DNA from: Planctomycetota bacterium | GTDB taxonomy: Bacteria > Planctomycetota > Phycisphaerae > Sedimentisphaerales > Anaerobacaceae | DNA: 64,000 nucleotides | Assembly (NCBI GenBank): GCA_014384025.1 | Contig: JACNGQ010000246.1 | Span: forward strand, 1-64,000 | Direction of reading: 5' to 3' | Shown here: piece by piece, positions 50,911 to 59,555 of the stretch | Layout: every line of letters begins with the position of its first letter | How positions within the stretch are numbered: the stretch's first letter is position 1 | Translations under genes and position numbers: made by a program | The notes under the pieces: model-generated | Seen by the model: the letters and a program-made list of their open reading frames with translations, nothing else | What the model was told of the DNA's origin: nothing | Databases searched by the model: none

Positions 50911-53310
50911 TCAGTCTATAGTACTGGCTTCGAGTTTTGCATCCATCACCATGCAATTATGCTTCGGTAAAGTGAATAAGAAAGTAGTTCCCTGCCCGAG
51001 CTTTGATTCAGACCAGATTTTACCTCCATAGGTCTCAACGATTTTCTTCACGAGTGAAAGTCCAATACCAGTGCTTTCGAACTGGTCTTGCGGCTCAGTT
51101 GTTTGGAACATTCGGAAGATTTTATCGAAGAGTTCTTCTTCAATTCCTGGGCCGTTGTCGGCGATGCTGAACTTCCAACAAACATCTTCATCAATACAGC
51201 TGATTCTTACTTGGCCTTGTGATTGATCCATACATTTTACGGCATTGCTCAGTAGAATCTGAAAGACCCAGGTAATGCGAGTTTGTTCTGATTCGATGAA
51301 AGGCAATTCATTCTCAACCACGAGGGTAATGTTTTCCGGTGCAGAGACCATATCGATAATCTGCGGAATAAGATCATTAAGATTGACCTGCACCTTTTGT
51401 TCAGCCAGATATCCTACTCTCGAATACTGTAGGATACTATCGATCAAGTTGTGCATTCGATTCACGTGGTTCAAGATCAAATCCAACTGCTTCTTTCCTT
51501 TTTCATCGAGCTTGTCGGCGTAATCATCTGATACCAATTGCGATAATCTCTGGATCGTTCGCAATGGATCCTTCAAATCGTGTGAGACTATGTTTGCGAA
51601 GTCTTTTAGCTCAGTGTTGATACTCTCTAATTGATTGAGAAGCTCCATCTGTCTTCTCTCGGCCTTCCTGCGCTCGGCTATACCTGTAGCAAGAAGCTCC
51701 AGCTGTCTTCTCTCGGCCTTCCTGCGCTCGGTGATGTCTGTCGAGATTAGATTCACTGCTACAACCTGCTCACCATGCATAACAGGTACGACGCGTGTTT
51801 TCCATATGGTCTCTGATTCTTGCTCGCCATCCCAATTAATCTCGAAGTTGCCTACTTTCCCGGTTAGGAAAACACTTTCGATAGATTCTCTCATTATCTC
51901 TTGTTGGTCGGGCGGCATATATTCATAAATACTGGTTCCAATCACATTCTCCGGAGCAGTCCCTGCCTTAATGTGATTGAGGAACTGAATCCTGCCGTCT
52001 TTGCCCACAGCGAAGATAACATCAGGAATGTTCTCTGCCAGTGATCGCCATTTCTGCTCACTCTGGCGCAGGGCTTCCTCTGCTTCTCTTAGTGCCGCTA
52101 GCTCCTTTTTCGCTGTTATGTCATAAACTATTCCCTGAGATCCATTCGTTTCTCCGTGGAGGTCTTTAATAAAGGTGGAAAATACGGTCACGTATATCTT
52201 TTTGCCTTTGGAAGTTTTGAGAGTTAGTTCCTTGCTTTCAAAACAACCCTCTTTTAGCTCGGCCAGGAACTGTTCTCTCTCTTTCGGATCAAACCAAAAC
52301 CGTTCCGGCAGAAATGGTTGATTAATGAATTCTTGTGGTTCAGAAACCTCGAATAGTTCCGTAAATGCATGATTAGCATAGGTTATCACGTAATCCAGGT
52401 CGGTAGTATAGATGGCGCTTTTGGATTCCTCCAATAATCTGTGGTTCTTGTCTTCATCAGCTTGTAGTTTATTCTTAATCGCCATGAAGATGTCTGTTTG
52501 AGTTACAATCCCGCATAACTTCTTGCCCTCCATGATAACCAGCCTGTGAATATTCATATTTTCCATAGTCTTGCTGGCACTGAAGACAGAATAGCTGGGG
52601 GGAACACTTATCACTGGAGAAGACATTACCTCTTCTGTTTTGACATCGCGTGGATTTTTTTGCAGTGCAATTACTCTTCCGAGAATGTTTTTCTCGGTGA
52701 GGATGCCAACGATCTGCTCACCTTCCATTACTGTGATGGATGAAATATGACGGGAAGACATGATAGTTGCCGCTTCCGCTACGCTTGCTTTCCTCTCTAT
52801 TCCATATACGTTCTTATTCATTATCTCTGAAATATCTCTCCATGTGCCATAGTATGTCAGGGCCAGGGCCAGATCAGGCTGTACTACAATTCCCACCAGT
52901 TTATTCTCAGACAGGACAGGTAGGCACTTGATGTGCTTGGCCTCCATGATATTGCTGGCTTCAAGGACCGAAAAATCAGAAGGTACAGTCTCCACCGGTG
53001 ACGACATTATTACAGCAACTGCCATTCTATGTACATCCCTGGCCTCGACTACGGCTTTTTTGAGGAGATCTGTTTCGGTAAGAATGCCTTTCACGTTCCC
53101 GTTCTGAACAACAATGATGCAGGAAACGTTGTTCTCAGACATTACTACCGCTGCAGTAGCCACCGTCTCATCGGGTGAAATGGTGATGACTTCTTTTTTC
53201 ATAACCTGCTCGATTTTCATCCACTCGTGAGAAGTGGTCATCGCATGAGTTGTATAAAAGTTCCGGTTCTTAATCGGCAATAGGTCATCGAACTGTTTTT
53301 TGTCGCCCAT
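50911..53310 (-). CDS. Hybrid sensor: multiple CBS domains + two PAS regions + histidine kinase
   Basis: Repeated CBS motifs (VMKKEVITISPDETVATAAVVMSENNVSCIIVV...), PAS regions, HisKA FANIVSHDLKDPLRTIQRLSQLV, HATPase FSIADNGPGIEEELFDKIFRMF...GIGLSLVKKIVETYGGKIWSES. Confidence 0.93.
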   Translation of the reverse strand: MGDKKQFDDLLPIKNRNFYTTHAMTTSHEWMKIEQVMKKEVITISPDETVATAAVVMSENNVSCIIVVQNGNVKGILTETDLLKKAVVEARDVHRMAVAVIMSSPVETVPSDFSVLEASNIMEAKHIKCLPVLSENKLVGIVVQPDLALALTYYGTWRDISEIMNKNVYGIERKASVAEAATIMSSRHISSITVMEGEQIVGILTEKNILGRVIALQKNPRDVKTEEVMSSPVISVPPSYSVFSASKTMENMNIHRLVIMEGKKLCGIVTQTDIFMAIKNKLQADEDKNHRLLEESKSAIYTTDLDYVITYANHAFTELFEVSEPQEFINQPFLPERFWFDPKEREQFLAELKEGCFESKELTLKTSKGKKIYVTVFSTFIKDLHGETNGSQGIVYDITAKKELAALREAEEALRQSEQKWRSLAENIPDVIFAVGKDGRIQFLNHIKAGTAPENVIGTSIYEYMPPDQQEIMRESIESVFLTGKVGNFEINWDGEQESETIWKTRVVPVMHGEQVVAVNLISTDITERRKAERRQLELLATGIAERRKAERRQMELLNQLESINTELKDFANIVSHDLKDPLRTIQRLSQLVSDDYADKLDEKGKKQLDLILNHVNRMHNLIDSILQYSRVGYLAEQKVQVNLNDLIPQIIDMVSAPENITLVVENELPFIESEQTRITWVFQILLSNAVKCMDQSQGQVRISCIDEDVCWKFSIADNGPGIEEELFDKIFRMFQTTEPQDQFESTGIGLSLVKKIVETYGGKIWSESKLGQGTTFLFTLPKHNCMVMDAKLEASTID

Positions 53311-53944
53311 CGGTTTTTCTCCTGTATTTACATGTTATGTTCGTCTGTTAGCCCCTGAATTCAGAGTGCATCTGCCGCCTGCCGGGTTCCTTTATACAAA
53401 CTTGACATGACCACGGAATTTTCGTCGTCAAAGTAAAAAATCCCGTCAAAGGCGGATTGCCACGTAACTTTCAGATGTTTTAAAGCCAAATTTTGAGCTA
53501 AGTTATGAAAGAAAAAATAAATCTATCCGCTTTACACAATCTCCCTCAAGCAAATAAACATAGCTGTTCTTACAATCCATCGACTTATTCAGACAGCTAC
53601 TTTATCTTATTGCTAATCCATTAACAGGCATTTCGAACCTGATACTTAGGAATATCCTGCTCGCTTTTTCTCTCCGGCTACGCTGCAGTGATACGATAGA
53701 GAAATATATCAAACGCAGTCTTAAACCAACCGATAATATCTCACAAAACACACCTGAAATAATTAATCCTCTCTCACATATTCATCGGTCATGTTTTGGC
53801 AATTGTAGAACACAAAGATGAAATCCACTCCTCAACCCCAATAATATTGTCATCCTCGCATGTCTTTAGCGGGGACCCAGCTTTAATCGTCAATAGTCAA
53901 TCGAAATGTAGGGGCAACCCCGTGTGGTTGCCCTGATTTGCTTG

Positions 53945-53975
53945 CCCCGTTAGAGTGCTTTATACTCTAACGGGG
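53945..53975. repeat. Perfect inverted repeat CCCCGTTAGAGT(gctttat)ACTCTAACGGGG
   Basis: 12-bp perfect arms; second copy at 59166-59196. Confidence 0.9.
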
Positions 53976-54039
53976 TCATCCCGACCGAGGCGTAGCCGAG
54001 TGGAGGGATCTATTTGGATATTCGCCCGAAGGGCCTCCA
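53975..54039. repeat. Dispersed repeat GTCATCCCGACCGA...GTGGAGGGATCTATT...CGCCCGAAGGGCCTCCA, copy 1
   Basis: Direct match to copy 2 at 54451-54505, with an extra GGCGTAGCCGA-type segment. Confidence 0.85.
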
Positions 54040-54042
54040 CAA

Positions 54043-54076
54043 CTCAAAACTAAAAACTAAACACTCAAAACTAAAT
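54043..54076. repeat. Second CTMAAAA-type heptanucleotide tract
   Basis: CTCAAAACTAAAAACTAAACACTCAAAACTAAA. Confidence 0.8.
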
Positions 54077-54450
54077 TACGGCAATCTTCATTAAATCATT
54101 GCTTGGTTGTCATAAATCAACCACAATGTCTTTCCGGTTTTAGGCGGACTAAATCCTCTGCCCTGCGTAGCCTTGGCGAAGCATGGGTCAATCCCAATAA
54201 TCATTCATCATTCATCAATAATCATTTCAATGTGCTTGCCCTGATATGCGATATTATCCCGATGCATTGTTGCCGTTATCATTGTAGGGGCGGTTCGTGA
54301 ACCGCCCTCAAGACGTATCTGTACCATTGCATTGTTAAATGTAGCGGCTGGGTTCAAGCCCAGTTATCAACCGAAATGTAGGGGCAATCCCATGTGGTTG
54401 CCCTGAAAGCAAGGGATCATTTAACTTCACACAATACGCATCTCGTTTCT

Positions 54451-54505
54451 GTCATCCCGACCGAAGTGGAGGGATCTATTCAAGTAGCCGCCCGAAGGGC
54501 CTCCA
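54451..54505. repeat. Dispersed repeat GTCATCCCGACCGAAGTGGAGGGATCTATT...CGCCCGAAGGGCCTCCA, copy 2
   Basis: Direct match to 53975-54039. Confidence 0.85.
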
Positions 54506-54626
54506 TAATTTTCCTTTTGCCTTTTTACTTCTTTTCCGTTATTCTCACCCCCAAAGGCGTGAAACAACCGGGAGCGGAATCAACACAAAATATGAGATAT
54601 GAAATTGTTTGGCGGGAATTGTGGCT

Positions 54627-55085
54627 TTAGTCTGTGTTAATATCATCAGACGCACGAGATTTCTTGATACCCCATACAGAAGACGCTATCGATTCTAACT
54701 TCTTCATGAAATTGTCAACATTGTATCCAGCGATAAAAGCAATAGCTAAGTATCCGAAAGCTATAGCATCAGGCTTTGCATCAGCTTCAAGAACGAGTAA
54801 CCCTGCTTTTAAGAAAATGTAACTTATAAAACCACTTATCCCGCTTGCAATAGGTCTAAGATAATACCAAACTTCCCAATCTTTGTCCCACTCTTTTCGA
54901 ACGCATTTGTTCAAATAAACAGCCCTAAGGCAATATAAAATCCCCCCCATAATTCCAACTAAAGTGCATTTAATTAAAAGTATATTTTCTACATACCAAG
55001 AGGGCATGTCAATAAGATGGTGGCTTATTGAGAGAAACACCATGATAAATAGAGCCAAACACAAATATGTAATAATCTTAATCAT
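54627..55085 (-). CDS. Four-TM protein of the E2-E1/JAB/MBL operon (candidate effector)
   Basis: 152 aa; four hydrophobic segments (IITYLCLALFIMVFLSI, NILLIKCTLVGIMGGILYCL, IASGISGFISYIFLKAGLLVL, AIAFGYLAIAFIAGYNV); starts 18 nt after the JAB stop. Confidence 0.75.
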   Translation of the reverse strand: MIKIITYLCLALFIMVFLSISHHLIDMPSWYVENILLIKCTLVGIMGGILYCLRAVYLNKCVRKEWDKDWEVWYYLRPIASGISGFISYIFLKAGLLVLEADAKPDAIAFGYLAIAFIAGYNVDNFMKKLESIASSVWGIKKSRASDDINTD

Positions 55086-55103
55086 TTTAAAGTTCCTTTC
55101 ATT

Positions 55104-55619
55104 TTAGTTCTTAAAACTATTACGTTCCCATCCTTTTACTAATTCAATCAGACCGACTTGTCGTGAATAGACAAAAGAGCTACAAGACCACTTGGTCTTT
55201 GGATCACCTCCAATTATGAACATGATAACCTCTGGGGATTTATATGACCTATCTTCCGCATTACTCTTGATCTGGCAGATATCAGTGGAACTGGGATTTG
55301 GTTTTGCAAATGGATGAAAATGCCATTCTCCAAGATAGTACCTACGCTCTTTTACATACCATAAACTGTTGATCCATTGTTGGAGCCCTTTAATTCCTCG
55401 TCGGAAAAATGTTCTCTTGCAAGTAGAGTCTCTTGGAGGTCCGGAACAGTCTGTTACAATGGCACAATTTTGACGTCGGTTGTAGTAACCAACCATAATT
55501 CCACCTGTCTCAAATGCACAATTGTTTTTGCAGAACGTTATTGCCTTTTGTAACACTTGAGCAGAGATTCTAACTCCATATCTACCACAAGGTGACCATG
55601 CTTCGTAATTTTGGATCAT
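55104..55619 (-). CDS. JAB/MPN (Mov34)-family isopeptidase-like protein
   Basis: FETGGIMVGYYNRRQNCAIVTDCSGPP and YYLGEWHFHPFAKPNPSSTDI, matching E...HxHP...SxxD. Confidence 0.88.
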   Translation of the reverse strand: MIQNYEAWSPCGRYGVRISAQVLQKAITFCKNNCAFETGGIMVGYYNRRQNCAIVTDCSGPPRDSTCKRTFFRRGIKGLQQWINSLWYVKERRYYLGEWHFHPFAKPNPSSTDICQIKSNAEDRSYKSPEVIMFIIGGDPKTKWSCSSFVYSRQVGLIELVKGWERNSFKN

Positions 55620-55620
55620 G

Positions 55621-57441
55621 TCATTTTTCGAAAATCAGTTTAATTCCACAAAATTTCTCATTTTCCTTAATCTGCTCGAAAACGGCGAATTTCGTTCTAT
55701 CGTGTTGTATTTTCATGTGCTCATCTAAATATTTCAATGCAGTACTAGCTGCCAGCCACATATCATCGACTCTTGCAGGAAAAGCTGGGTGCCAACATCC
55801 TGTTCCTGCTCTAGGTAATTCCATGCCACACATGTCGTCAATTTCCTTCTCTAGCCATTCCTTCATCAAATCTAGAAAGATTACATTAGGAAATGCTTTC
55901 TTCCTCGCTATAAATAAATATAATCTCTTGGCTTTGAATCCTACAGACACGGAACAGAATAATTTTTCTCCACCCCACACAAAGCCTCCACAATAGTGTA
56001 TAACTTCATCATTCGCTGTGCAATCAATAATTATATCTGCTTCTCTCAATTTTTCCTTATCATTATCATCAATGTCTTCTAAGTTATTCGCAATTTCTCT
56101 CACTTTTGCGTAAGGTAATATTTTCAAAAGATGTTTTTTTAGGCACGTCGCCTTTGCCAAACCAACATCTTCAAGTCCAAGTGTATGCCGTACTAGATTG
56201 CCAGCTTCAAGAATTTCTTTGTCCACAATTGTAAGTTGATGTACACTCCCTCTTACAAGCAATTCAGACATCATAGAGCCAAGTGAACCGGCTCCTATTA
56301 TGACTACTCGCGAAGTTGTAAGCTCACTCGAGTATCGACCCCTACATGCTATTTCTTCAGAGTTCCAGTTTTCACATTTTTGCCAATCCACAGGCTCACT
56401 TCCGCTTAATAATTTTCTGTCTCGCATTTGATATCCTATCTCGTTCGCCCTAAAACCAGGCGCGCTAAAATTTTTATGGGATAATACCGGCAATAGTAAT
56501 GCTTGCCAATATAACTGCAATGGTTTCGATCCAATCTTATCTGGGATTGGAAAACCCAGTAAAGCGATGTGTTGTGTTCCATCTCTTATCTTTCTAGATA
56601 CGTTTCCAATTAGACGACGGATATCTTTTCCTTGAGTTTTGGCAGCATCAATCAATTCTTTCCAAGTTCTGGGTGCCTGCCAGGGAGGAAGAACAATCGG
56701 CCTTTCGAAAATCATCCATATTCCTATCACTTTGTCCTTTATCGAGGCATTAACAAAGTCTCCCCATTCTGAATGCAGTAATTCCTCATTTTTTAAATTC
56801 ATAATCCTCTGAACAATAAGTTTTGCGATAGGTTTTTCAAGTGAAGTTAGCTCCAAGATTCCACTATTAGTATTTACATTCGCCCAAACTTTTGCAAAGG
56901 TATCTCTCGATTCTGAAAAAACTATTGTAATCGGTTCCGGTCCTGTAGGGTAATCTGGGACCTCGAAATAATTCCCAATTTCGACAAGCGTTCCGTTTGC
57001 AGCGTGTTCCAACCATTCAAGAGCCCTCATAAAATGCCACTTCAGTCGCTTACTAGCTTCATATGGCTCCTCGCTATATGCGCTTCTTCCAGTCTTGTAT
57101 AGGCTTGTATTTACACAGATATTACCGTTTCTCCACGGTAAATCATCTTTGATATTCCCATTATGTATCTGGTGTTGAAATGTTCTTGTCAATCCCCCTT
57201 TTTTAGCCGGATAGAATTTTATGTCTCCCAGAGGATATGCCCCGTCTATAAGGACATACCAAAATGTCTCATTAGGAACAAGCTCGGGATTTGAAGAGTC
57301 AATTCGCAGGCAACAACAAACCGTCCATTTCTTCTTGAAATCGTTCCACTTGAGATTCCGTACAATGGTTACGCGCGACAGGCTATATAATGCGCGCTCG
57401 CCATCAATCAATACTCTGGTTTTCGACTGCCCTCCTTTCAT
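55621..57441 (-). CDS. E2-E1 fusion: N-terminal UBC/E2-like domain + C-terminal ThiF/E1 adenylyltransferase
   Basis: E2-like YPLGDIKFYPAKKGGLTRTFQHQIHNGNIKDDLPWRNGNICVN; E1 VVIIGAGSLGSMMSELLVRGSVHQLTIVDKEILEAGNLVRHTLGLEDVGLAKA; IIDCTANDEV; GTGCWHPAFPARVDDMWLAA. Confidence 0.88.
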   Translation of the reverse strand: MKGGQSKTRVLIDGERALYSLSRVTIVRNLKWNDFKKKWTVCCCLRIDSSNPELVPNETFWYVLIDGAYPLGDIKFYPAKKGGLTRTFQHQIHNGNIKDDLPWRNGNICVNTSLYKTGRSAYSEEPYEASKRLKWHFMRALEWLEHAANGTLVEIGNYFEVPDYPTGPEPITIVFSESRDTFAKVWANVNTNSGILELTSLEKPIAKLIVQRIMNLKNEELLHSEWGDFVNASIKDKVIGIWMIFERPIVLPPWQAPRTWKELIDAAKTQGKDIRRLIGNVSRKIRDGTQHIALLGFPIPDKIGSKPLQLYWQALLLPVLSHKNFSAPGFRANEIGYQMRDRKLLSGSEPVDWQKCENWNSEEIACRGRYSSELTTSRVVIIGAGSLGSMMSELLVRGSVHQLTIVDKEILEAGNLVRHTLGLEDVGLAKATCLKKHLLKILPYAKVREIANNLEDIDDNDKEKLREADIIIDCTANDEVIHYCGGFVWGGEKLFCSVSVGFKAKRLYLFIARKKAFPNVIFLDLMKEWLEKEIDDMCGMELPRAGTGCWHPAFPARVDDMWLAASTALKYLDEHMKIQHDRTKFAVFEQIKENEKFCGIKLIFEK

Positions 57442-58574
57442 CAAGCAAACGTAGCCCCTCCAATCCGCGATAGCTCTCTTCTTTTTGTGTACCCCCCCGG
57501 ACTCAGCTTACTCCCCTTCCCATCGTCTTCAAAGCCAGGGCCTGATTCGTCCACCACAATCACTATTGGTTTTGGTTTATCACTCGTCGGCGTACTCATT
57601 GTTACAAGGAATTCACCTGACTTATCTCTTGCAACATCTTCATAATAAGCGGCTGCTTGCTTATGAGGTGGAAGGTCAGTATCTTCTTCAGGTATTTTTT
57701 TACTTGAAGAAATTAGATAGCAATCGTCTTGTCCCTGCTCAAAAAGGTACTTTACATCATCAGTAGGCTCTGTCTTATCTTTCCCCTTTTCATTTGAAAG
57801 TGCCTTATAACTACAATGGTGTGATATGCTGAAAATATCCCATATTAGACGCTCTATCCTATTTTTCTGCTTTGTCTTGTAGACGATTTTTTCCCATACA
57901 TCGTATGTCGTGTCCGCACTGAAAAAAGCTCTTGAGCACGTATCTCCTTCGAAAAACGTAATATGGAAAACAAGGCTTGCCTTGTTTTGATCAATCTCTT
58001 CGTTGTCCACTTGAAAGGAAAATGGTGCATGAATAAAAATTTCTGCTTGATCATTTTCCTTTGTAAAACCGGGTACACAATTTCCCGCTGTTGTGATCAA
58101 ATGTTTCCTTTCCTTTGGTTTGATATTTTTGCTTTTTAACCAGTCATCAAGGGCATTTGGCTGACTAAATACCCTAATCCCTTTGCCCTCTATTAGTCTA
58201 TGCCTTGCTTCCTGACGAATTATTCGTGCAGAATCCTTTAGTCGTTCCTCTAAAATGTAGCATGCTGGGACCCATATCTCTTTTATCTTTATCCGATCTT
58301 CTCCTTGATATTCTTCAGCATGATCCAACCAGAAGAATTCTTCTGCACCTAAGACATGGTCGCTGTCTCGGTGGGTAAAAGCTAACACATCAAAATAATC
58401 ACGCCCTTTATCCTCTAAAACAGCGCTAAGCTCTTCTGGTAACTTTACTCTCTTGTCTTCTTCATCATCATTTTCTTTGCCTTTAAAGTAGTCTATTAAC
58501 ATAAGTCTTTCATCAGCAAACTCTATTAGGCTACAATCTGCGTTTCCAAGTGGATAAAAAGTGATAGTCGCCAT
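57441..58574 (-). CDS. ComEC/Rec2-like metallo-beta-lactamase-fold protein
   Basis: MATITFYPLGNADCSLIEFADERLMLIDYF; metal motif AFTHRDSDHVLGAEEF; AFFSADTTYDVWEKIV; DIFSISHHCSYKAL. Its stop overlaps the next start (TGATG). Confidence 0.85.
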   Translation of the reverse strand: MATITFYPLGNADCSLIEFADERLMLIDYFKGKENDDEEDKRVKLPEELSAVLEDKGRDYFDVLAFTHRDSDHVLGAEEFFWLDHAEEYQGEDRIKIKEIWVPACYILEERLKDSARIIRQEARHRLIEGKGIRVFSQPNALDDWLKSKNIKPKERKHLITTAGNCVPGFTKENDQAEIFIHAPFSFQVDNEEIDQNKASLVFHITFFEGDTCSRAFFSADTTYDVWEKIVYKTKQKNRIERLIWDIFSISHHCSYKALSNEKGKDKTEPTDDVKYLFEQGQDDCYLISSSKKIPEEDTDLPPHKQAAAYYEDVARDKSGEFLVTMSTPTSDKPKPIVIVVDESGPGFEDDGKGSKLSPGGYTKRRELSRIGGATFA

Positions 58575-58836
58575 AATATTTCTCCTAAAAAATTAAAGTA
58601 ATTCATATAAAAACCTTAAAATTGTGGAATCAGTTCTGAAATGAAAAGCGGTGTGTCTAATTTCTTAGGCAACGCCGACCATCCATGTCAGCAGCCCTTG
58701 TTTTAAATGTAATCATTTAATATACGCAAATATCGTGCCAATTACATTGTTATGGGACGATGCTCTTGCAACTCTTTTTCTATACAAAACTTACAAGCAT
58801 TCTTCGTTTTTTCAATCATTTGTCAATGCTATATTT

Positions 58837-58853
58837 ACTGCCATGTTGGCAGT
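58837..58853. promoter_or_regulatory. Candidate palindromic operator upstream of the MBL/E2-E1/JAB operon
   Basis: ACTGCCA-TGT-TGGCAGT, 7-bp perfect arms. Confidence 0.3.
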
Positions 58854-59143
58854 CATATATACCAATCGAATATGTTGCCTAACACAGAGAAAACAGCGCA
58901 AACACTAAGCGCTTCTATTAATAATGGCGTTTCTGAGCCTGCAAATATTGATTGTTTTATCTTAAATTTCCCGAAAAATCAGCAAAAAACGTAAATAGAT
59001 ACCCATTTTTCAGTCAAAAACGCTCACTCTTAAAAACAAAAATCTGAATTTTCAAAATTTTTTATCTCCTTCCAATATAACGACTTACGGACTCCGGGCC
59101 CCGGAATACGACCAAATTTTCGACTCAAAACTGCACACTCGTC

Positions 59144-59215
59144 TAATTATAGAGGCAGTGCCTTGCCCCGTTAGAGTGCCTTATACTCTAATGGGGTTTT
59201 TCTGCCTCGAATTAG
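59144..59215. repeat. Nested long hairpin with core CCCCGTTAGAGT...ACTCTAATGGGG
   Basis: Outer arms CTAAT/ATTAG and GAGGCAG/CTGCCTC enclose a second copy of the 53945 hairpin, followed by T5. Confidence 0.85.
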
Positions 59216-59450
59216 GAGTTTTGAATTTGAGTCATTTGGATTTTGATATTGTTTCGGATTTCGGGACCTGTCCTGAGCAGGGTCGAAGGATTCGGATTTC
59301 GAGTTTATGCTATATAAATTCTACGAATTCTTACGTACGAATTTATAAGCAAATTATGCAAAACAAACCCAATTTCAGAAATGGCAAAATGAACATAAAT
59401 ATAGACATGACAAGCATATACATGATTTTTTCCGCTGGCTCAGGCCAAAA

Positions 59451-59555
59451 AACAAACCCAATTCAAAGCCAATTCAAACCCAATCAAAGCCAATTTAAGC
59501 CAATTTTAAGGCCTGGCAAAGCCAAAACAAAGCCAATTCAAACCCAATTTCAAGC
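59451..59555. repeat. ~11-nt periodic degenerate repeat array (CAAACCCAATT/CAAAGCCAATT)
   Basis: CAAACCCAATT CAAAGCCAATT CAAACCCAAT CAAAGCCAATT TAAGCCAATTT TAAGGCCTGG CAAAGCCAAAA CAAAGCCAATT CAAACCCAATT. Confidence 0.88.

Follow-up and report, generated by a model that had tools for sequence, protein, structure and literature searches.

The window, a stretch of 64,000 nucleotides from a Planctomycetota bacterium, contains four genes that are packed end to end on the minus strand. The first gene (57441-58574, minus strand) encodes an MBL-fold protein of 377 amino acids with a disordered C-terminal tail (residues 352-377; 57444-57521, minus strand) that ends in SPGGYTKRRELSRIGGATFA. It is followed by an E2-E1 fusion of the CBASS Cap2 type (55621-57444, minus strand), which comprises 607 amino acids from a TTG start or 606 from the ATG at 57441, and in which the codons for E2 Cys110 and E1 Cys550 occupy 57115-57117 and 55795-55797, both on the minus strand. 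The third gene (55104-55619, minus strand) encodes a JAB/JAMM isopeptidase of the CBASS Cap3 type with 171 amino acids, carrying E37 and HFHPFAKPNPSSTD at residue 100, and the fourth (54627-55085, minus strand) a four-TM protein of 152 amino acids that is a predicted membrane effector. Recomputing the open reading frames reproduced the four genes, coordinates and junctions described in an earlier note on this DNA, e.g. a TGATG overlap between the MBL and E2-E1 genes, 1 nt between E2-E1 and JAB, and 18 nt before the TM gene. Misassembly of a MAG contig is possible in principle, although neighbouring genes here are overlapping or abutting. The same note saw neither a CD-NTase nor a ubiquitin-like gene here, and this held. 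No CD-NTase gene is present among the operon's reading frames or was found in 53310-59550, no recognisable additional Ubl-like reading frame was found in 53310-59550, and the SMODS CD-NTase family (PF18144) has no match anywhere in the source genome.

The MBL protein scores 396.6 bits against the NCBIfam model NF058524 (“anti-phage 6A-MBL”), above its membership cutoff of 220, and its sequence thus places it in the 6A-MBL family; the “anti-phage” label of this family rests only on NCBIfam family names. The ComEC-like fold proposed earlier is borne out by an AF2 model (pLDDT 90.5), for which the top PDB hit is 9ic4, the MBL domain of ComEC (E 4.3e-15). The catalytic residues are intact, comprising the HxDxDH motif at H68/D70/D72/H73 together with H182, D221 and H252/H253, and across 33 homologues the metal ligands are conserved, D70 being retained by 31. 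Single-sequence scans of genome contigs and viral contigs gave no relatives of the MBL protein, whereas an alignment-based scan succeeded; phage records contained no relative of it. MBL, E2-E1 and JAB occur together in nearly all intact loci examined, an association far beyond chance, so the neighbourhood conservation that the earlier note proposed to check was found. Operons of MBL with E2-E1-JAB have been catalogued as type 6a (Iyer 2006, Table 1, row 6a), which agrees with the note's mention of surveys reporting MBL neighbours. The family, though named, is little studied: the literature searched yielded no paper on 6A-MBL and no published function for it.

The enzymes beside this MBL protein are of a different kind. 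The E2-E1 fusion matches the Cap2 structure 7to3 over residues 36-573 (E 3e-90) and retains the conserved catalytic cysteines C110 (E2) and C550 (E1), in agreement with its first identification. It scores 649 bits against the PADLOC model PDLC00848, whereas a true 6A E2-E1-JAB protein reaches only 73 bits. On the 6A cap2_3 model NF058523 it scores 109.7 bits, below the cutoff of 320 and close to the 113.7 bits of Nostoc CBASS Cap2, whereas real 6A proteins score 554-674 bits. The identity of the third gene product as a JAB/MPN isopeptidase is supported by a match to Prok-JAB (4.2e-10) and an intact active-site motif (E37, H100xH...D). Its top PADLOC model, PDLC00890 (2.2e-47), is also the top model for Nostoc CBASS Cap3; it scores 50.1 bits on the Cap3 model NF050170 (cutoff 200) and 91.5 bits on NF058523 (cutoff 320). 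In a tree of E2-E1 sequences, the CBASS type (13 CD-NTase-linked proteins, the window, and loci L043 and L128) and the 6A type (21 proteins) are separated at 100/100 support, and an AU test rejects, at a moderate p 0.033, a position of the window and L043 proteins within 6A. Close relatives of the E2-E1 fusion examined by hand, from plasmids and one genome of the same phylum, have a CD-NTase neighbour in 8 of 8 cases. As judged from these sequences, the E2-E1 and JAB genes originate from the Cap2 and Cap3 of type II CBASS, and the earlier description of an MBL in the place of the CD-NTase is literally right. An ordinary 6A-MBL system whose E2-E1-JAB triple gene was merely split in two would share the clearly 6A MBL and the 6A order of MBL, E2-E1 and JAB, and a few 6A loci do appear split (L055, L059); this explanation is nevertheless extremely unlikely and largely refuted by the CBASS type of both enzymes in profiles and tree, and is opposed by an MBL tail that as a whole resembles CD-NTase tails and not those of 6A.

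Only two such hybrids, the operon in the window and the Chloroflexota locus L043, were found among 98 MBL loci. Window-like E2-E1 proteins at 1e-40 occur in 2 of 399 Pseudomonadota and 2 of 301 Chloroflexota genomes, the hybrid being present only in that of L043, and window-like E2-E1 proteins were found in none of 292 cyanobacterial genomes. In a tree of MBL proteins with the tail left out, the window and L043 proteins both fall inside the 6A clade, yet apart from each other, and an AU test speaks against a single clade of the two (p 0.009). Two separate origins of the hybrid are the reading favoured by these sequence data. Another explanation would be that the operon is the decayed remnant of a type II CBASS from which the CD-NTase was lost, and that an unrelated MBL gene happened to land beside Cap2/Cap3. 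The genome without a CD-NTase match would fit such decay, and locus L118, in which an intact CBASS has a fragment of a broken 6A MBL as its neighbour, demonstrates that such debris does occur. However, the MBL of the window is intact, overlaps the start codon of E2-E1, and has kept its metal ligands and a Cap2-type tail, and the same arrangement is seen at the separate Chloroflexota locus; decay is very unlikely.

The C-terminal tail of the MBL protein connects the two halves. In CBASS, Cap2 conjugates the CD-NTase through a conserved C-terminal Gly/Ala (PMC10097602). Residues 352-377 of the MBL model have pLDDT below 50, and the protein terminates in ...GGATFA, i.e. with an alanine, Ala377, through which attachment by Cap2 is predicted. 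The CD-NTase tail pattern GGYTxR...GGxxFA is present both on this protein and on the MBL of L043, which sits with CBASS-type enzymes like those of the window. A terminal [RTLQ][FY][AG] is found in 12 of 13 CD-NTases and both hybrids (2/2), in none of 96 other 6A MBLs, and in 1 of 530 background proteins. Aligned from the end, the last 18 residues of the window MBL match a CD-NTase tail at 11/18 positions, which was equalled by 1 of 400,000 composition-preserving shuffles, and those of L043 at 13/18, equalled by none of 400,000; the top score was 7 among the 96 other 6A MBLs and 6 among 530 neighbouring proteins. The tail signal comes from this end-anchored matching, which was chosen after the tails had been seen. 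A local HMM of CD-NTase tails matches the L043 tail clearly and gives the window tail 6.1 bits (E 1.4), barely above its own shuffles. This non-significant score, and the shortness and Gly/Ser/Ala richness of the tails, would be expected if low-complexity linkers had merely converged and Cap2 conjugated something else. Given how seldom shuffled sequences equal the end-anchored matches, that account is very unlikely, and convergence, if it occurred, would still indicate selection for recognition by Cap2.

In almost all other 6A MBLs sampled, the protein ends in a flexible tail that has R-x-G at its C-terminus or close to it. When broken ends and two other branches are excluded, RxG lies at most 7 residues from the end in 84 of 84 proteins and is exactly terminal in 56, while the other 28 have 1-7 residues beyond it, which JAB may trim. 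The window tail contains SRIG five residues from its end. A 6A RxG tail with a five-residue pro-extension cut by JAB was considered for it and dropped once the CD-NTase tails of CBASS were compared, with which the whole tail aligns. With RxG on other 6A MBLs and the CD-NTase tail on the window and L043 proteins, the type of tail tracks the E1 and not the protein that bears it. Three points go beyond the earlier note: the MBL family already has a name, each half of the operon derives, by sequence, from a system of its own, and the MBL tail fits the foreign E1. A Bil- or Bub-like system with an encoded yet unrecognised Ubl protein is suggested by the JAB, E1 and E2 enzymes common to those systems, but the chance of it is minute, as E2 and E1 here form a single CBASS-like fusion, the gaps contain no suitable reading frame, and the MBL tail provides the modifier end. 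Among the roles first offered for the MBL protein (sensor, enzyme or conjugation target), the tail evidence favours that of conjugated substrate, and the protein is probably also an enzyme; that it is the substrate of Cap2 is very likely.

The four-TM protein has no family match in Pfam, PADLOC or PHROGs, and its all-helical, low-confidence model (pLDDT 68) yields no significant PDB match. It is 58% identical to a protein encoded immediately downstream of a 6A E2-E1-JAB gene (L077), and homologues with approximately 47% identity are found on enterobacterial 6A-MBL plasmids; by sequence the gene recurs with 6A-MBL systems, distant ones included. Patatins are known membrane effectors. In the third-gene slot of 88 loci, an adjacent same-strand patatin is present in 37, another protein with at least two TMs in 18 (only one with a patatin nearby), and the window-type TM protein in 2. 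Because of this recurrence in distant 6A systems and the alternation of patatin and TM proteins in the slot, the earlier guess that the TM protein is an effector gains support, and it is probably correct. A less probable, though still substantial, alternative is that the TM protein serves the MBL as membrane anchor, sensor or immunity partner and that the MBL itself is the killing nuclease. The ComEC-like fold with intact ligands would suit it, as would the enterobacterial plasmids, on which the TM gene is co-transcribed with a WYL regulator and lies apart from the MBL and E2-E1-JAB genes, unlike the usual CBASS effector; the alternation of the slot with patatins and other TM families speaks for an effector.

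The operon is best read, with a probability of roughly 0.8, as a hybrid anti-phage conjugation system in which the body of a 6A-MBL and its membrane effector are combined with type II CBASS Cap2/Cap3 and the MBL replaces the CD-NTase. Cap2 would adenylate the terminal Ala377 of the MBL protein, which would then pass over the catalytic cysteines of E1 and E2 and become attached to target proteins at their lysines. By analogy with CD-NTases, conjugation would prime the MBL protein, and JAB would take off or trim its conjugates. With less confidence, we propose that upon infection the primed ComEC-like hydrolase generates or breaks down a small nucleic-acid product, freeing the four-TM protein, which might then harm the inner membrane and cause abortive infection. 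Whether the signal is carried by this product rather than by protein contact is evenly balanced.

The CD-NTase-type tail suggests, from its sequence, a portable “attach me” tag. There is about an even chance that Cap2/Cap3 acts generally as a conjugation cassette directed by tails, with a C-terminal tail of approximately 20 residues serving as a portable tag on at least three unrelated heads, and that 6A-MBL systems are built alike but use a different tail and E1. The heads would be CD-NTases, MBL hydrolases (at least twice) and a YegP/DUF1508 protein from Spirosoma, whose C-terminus is GGGRFA. If so, immune heads would be exchangeable before one ubiquitin-like machinery, and the general principle would be conjugation of an immune enzyme by its protein tail and not conjugation of cGAS. 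A natural swap of the tail onto an unrelated fold would mean that the tail is sufficient for recognition by Cap2, and the substrate of an orphan cassette could thus be assigned from the last 20 residues of a neighbouring protein. The tails would also indicate that 6A-MBL systems conjugate the MBL itself, and the priming of an immune enzyme by conjugation would reach beyond cyclic-nucleotide synthases.

The operon can be compared with three known kinds of system. With 6A-MBL it shares the MBL family, an MBL gene that comes first and overlaps or abuts E2-E1, and a membrane-type third gene. It differs in having E2-E1 and JAB as two CBASS-type genes and not as one triple-module protein, a tail that as a whole is of the CD-NTase type where 6A has ...RxG, a TM effector candidate where patatin is commoner in 6A, and no WYL gene in the operon. 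One main-text clause in an earlier paper, which leaves 6A or hybrid unstated and is given without tails, trees or function, probably overlaps the 6A-MBL or hybrid class. Bil and Bub systems likewise use E1, E2 and JAB enzymes, but they have a dedicated Ubl modifier and E1 and E2 of other families, whereas the E2-E1 of the window is fused and CBASS-type. Type II CBASS (CD-NTase, Cap2, Cap3 and effector) has the same Cap2-type E2-E1 followed by a separate Cap3-type JAB, and its first gene product carries the same type of Cap2-conjugated tail; the tail in the window, with its terminal Ala, is predicted to be conjugated likewise. However, no SAVED or other cyclic-nucleotide receptor was recognised in the operon, and because its first gene encodes a hydrolase of the MBL fold where CBASS has a nucleotidyltransferase, a cyclic nucleotide product is not expected.

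The four minus-strand genes at 54627-58574 have the coordinates and spacings reported in the earlier note: an MBL gene (57441-58574), an E2-E1 fusion (55621-57444), a JAB gene (55104-55619) and a gene for a transmembrane (TM) protein (54627-55085). Structure models and residue inspection also bear out the folds and active sites claimed for their products. The MBL protein has a ComEC-like fold with HxDxDH and additional metal ligands, the E2-E1 protein carries E2 Cys110 and E1 Cys550 (residue numbers counted from the TTG start), the JAB protein has Glu37 and an HxH...D motif, and the fourth product is modelled as a small, all-helical membrane protein. The operon was said to lack a CD-NTase, and none lies between the flanking genes; this interval likewise contains no further ubiquitin-like-looking ORF, and the genome holds no SMODS-type CD-NTase. 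The G+C content of the operon is 39.5% vs 45.6% at window positions 1-54000, which is consistent with horizontal arrival. A hairpin repeat, TTAGAGTATAA[A/G]GCACTCTAACGGGGCAAG, occurs in two same-strand copies on either side of the operon (53941-53970 and 59162-59191, 5.2 kb apart), possibly linked to its mode of arrival; the repeat core has 18 copies in the genome.

The class combining MBL, E2-E1 and JAB is already catalogued and named. The window MBL scores 396.6 bits (cutoff 220) on NCBIfam NF058524, the “anti-phage 6A-MBL system MBL-fold protein”, a name derived from operon type 6a (Iyer et al., 2006). Searches of plasmids and genomes recovered about 100 MBL relatives; at almost all intact loci an E2-E1-JAB triple gene directly follows the MBL gene. 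Some members have a second, different MBL-fold gene after the 6A locus (L095:9483-10553, L010:9210-10289) or, just upstream, an additional E2-E1-like/JAB-like gene pair (L012:1805-3648, L086:3112-5056).

The window E2-E1 and JAB, as judged from sequence, are not 6A proteins. On the 6A model NF058523 (cutoff 320) the window E2-E1 scores 109.7 bits, close to a Nostoc CBASS Cap2 (113.7), and real 6A triple proteins score 554-674; on PADLOC PDLC00848 it reaches 649 bits, Nostoc Cap2 760 and one 6A protein 73. Among known structures it matches Cap2 (PDB 7to3, 3e-90). Close relatives adjoin CD-NTases on plasmids of Nostoc, Desulfosarcina, Deinococcus, Haloplanus, Priestia, Enterobacter and Sphingomonas and in a same-phylum genome, most with a separate JAB as well. 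In a maximum-likelihood tree of 37 E2-E1 sequences, the CBASS and 6A types separate with 100/100 support, and the window falls with the CBASS proteins, as does a Chloroflexota MAG locus (L043); constraining both into 6A is rejected (p-AU 0.033). These scores, neighbours and tree indicate that the locus is a hybrid of a 6A MBL with CBASS Cap2 and Cap3.

In type II CBASS, the conserved C-terminal Gly or Ala of the CD-NTase is the point of conjugation by Cap2 (PMC10097602). The 6A MBLs consist of a body, a variable flexible stretch and a conserved end. In 84/84 6A MBLs an R-x-G is found no more than 7 residues from the C-terminus, and in 56 it is exactly terminal. This set of related and hence not independent sequences spans many phyla; two deep branches that carry other motifs, and five loci whose ends are broken, fused or frame-shifted, were removed from it after inspection. 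Terminal RxG occurs in 6/530 neighbouring proteins. Enterobacterial-plasmid and other branches, with bodies only 25-30% identical, end similarly in AAAPRAG plus 3-4 residues or in P-x-[YH]G. The remaining 28 of the 84 (e.g. L004, L034, L052, L091) carry 1-7 residues after RxG, reminiscent of ubiquitin pro-forms, which JAB could trim. One locus (L027:5938-9420) has a single 1160-aa ORF spanning MBL and E2-E1-JAB. This could be a genuine fusion or reflect a lost stop or frameshift, and would be odd if the MBL required a free C-terminus.

Taken as a whole, the tails of the two hybrids depart from this rule: their MBLs end in GGYTKRRELSRIGGATFA (window) and QGYTPRNRPSRIGGGRFA (L043), like the CD-NTases beside such Cap2 proteins (GGYTPRQGVSQLGGGRFA in Nostoc L102, GGYTPRKEPSIIGGGRYAA in Chloroflexota L117). 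In tests devised after this likeness had been noticed, the best end-anchored 18-residue comparisons with CD-NTase tails gave 11 matches for the window and 13 for L043, scores reached by 1/400,000 and 0/400,000 shuffles; the highest score was 7 for the 96 other 6A MBLs and 6 for the 530 other proteins. Terminal [RTLQ][FY][AG] occurs in 12/13 CD-NTases, 2/2 hybrids, 0/96 other 6A MBLs and 1/530 others. A local HMM of CD-NTase tails reaches significance with L043 alone (20 bits), against 6.1 bits for the window. The window MBL model, with a body pLDDT around 95 and residues 352-377 below 50, suggests an enzyme with a folded body and a loose tail, a layout also suggested by CD-NTase tails.

Only two hybrids were found. 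In a tree of MBL bodies with tails removed, both fall within the 6A clade, separate from each other, and a single hybrid clade is rejected (p-AU 0.009); the E2-E1 tree is undecided on one hybrid clade (p 0.277). The simplest reading is two separate captures, with the tail altered in both to suit the E1. A proteobacterial CBASS locus (L118:7219-8699) starts with a 110-residue N-terminal 6A MBL remnant, 79% identical to the L008 MBL and adjoining a WYL regulator, a scar of recombination or a swap between 6A and CBASS. On a Spirosoma sp. KNUC1025 plasmid (L128:1813-6133), a frame-shifted CBASS-type E2-E1 and a JAB stand behind a haem-peroxidase-family protein and a DUF1508/YegP protein ending GGGRFA, the latter a putative third kind of tailed head protein. 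The literature searched, with preprints and several key papers beyond reach, yielded no prior description of the hybrid, the MBL tails or the tail switch.

The MBL is most likely conjugated by Cap2 and most likely an enzyme as well; the proposed conjugation step rests on established Cap2 biochemistry. Cap2 would activate Ala377 of the MBL, conjugation would prime it and JAB would reverse the conjugation; on infection, the product of the MBL or direct contact with it would release the TM effector.

The TM protein matched no family in Pfam, PADLOC or PHROGs. A relative 58% identical is encoded immediately after a 6A triple gene (L077), and relatives about 47% identical occur in 181 plasmid records, mostly enterobacterial; in the four records examined the gene adjoins a WYL regulator and faces a 6A MBL only about 25% identical to that of the window. 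In a comparison of 88 loci, the position following E2-E1(-JAB) is occupied by a patatin gene in 37, by a gene for some other protein with at least 2 TM segments in 18 and by a window-type TM gene in 2, and a patatin occurs somewhere in the locus in 56. This position, mostly membrane-directed, resembles the slot for exchangeable effectors in CBASS.
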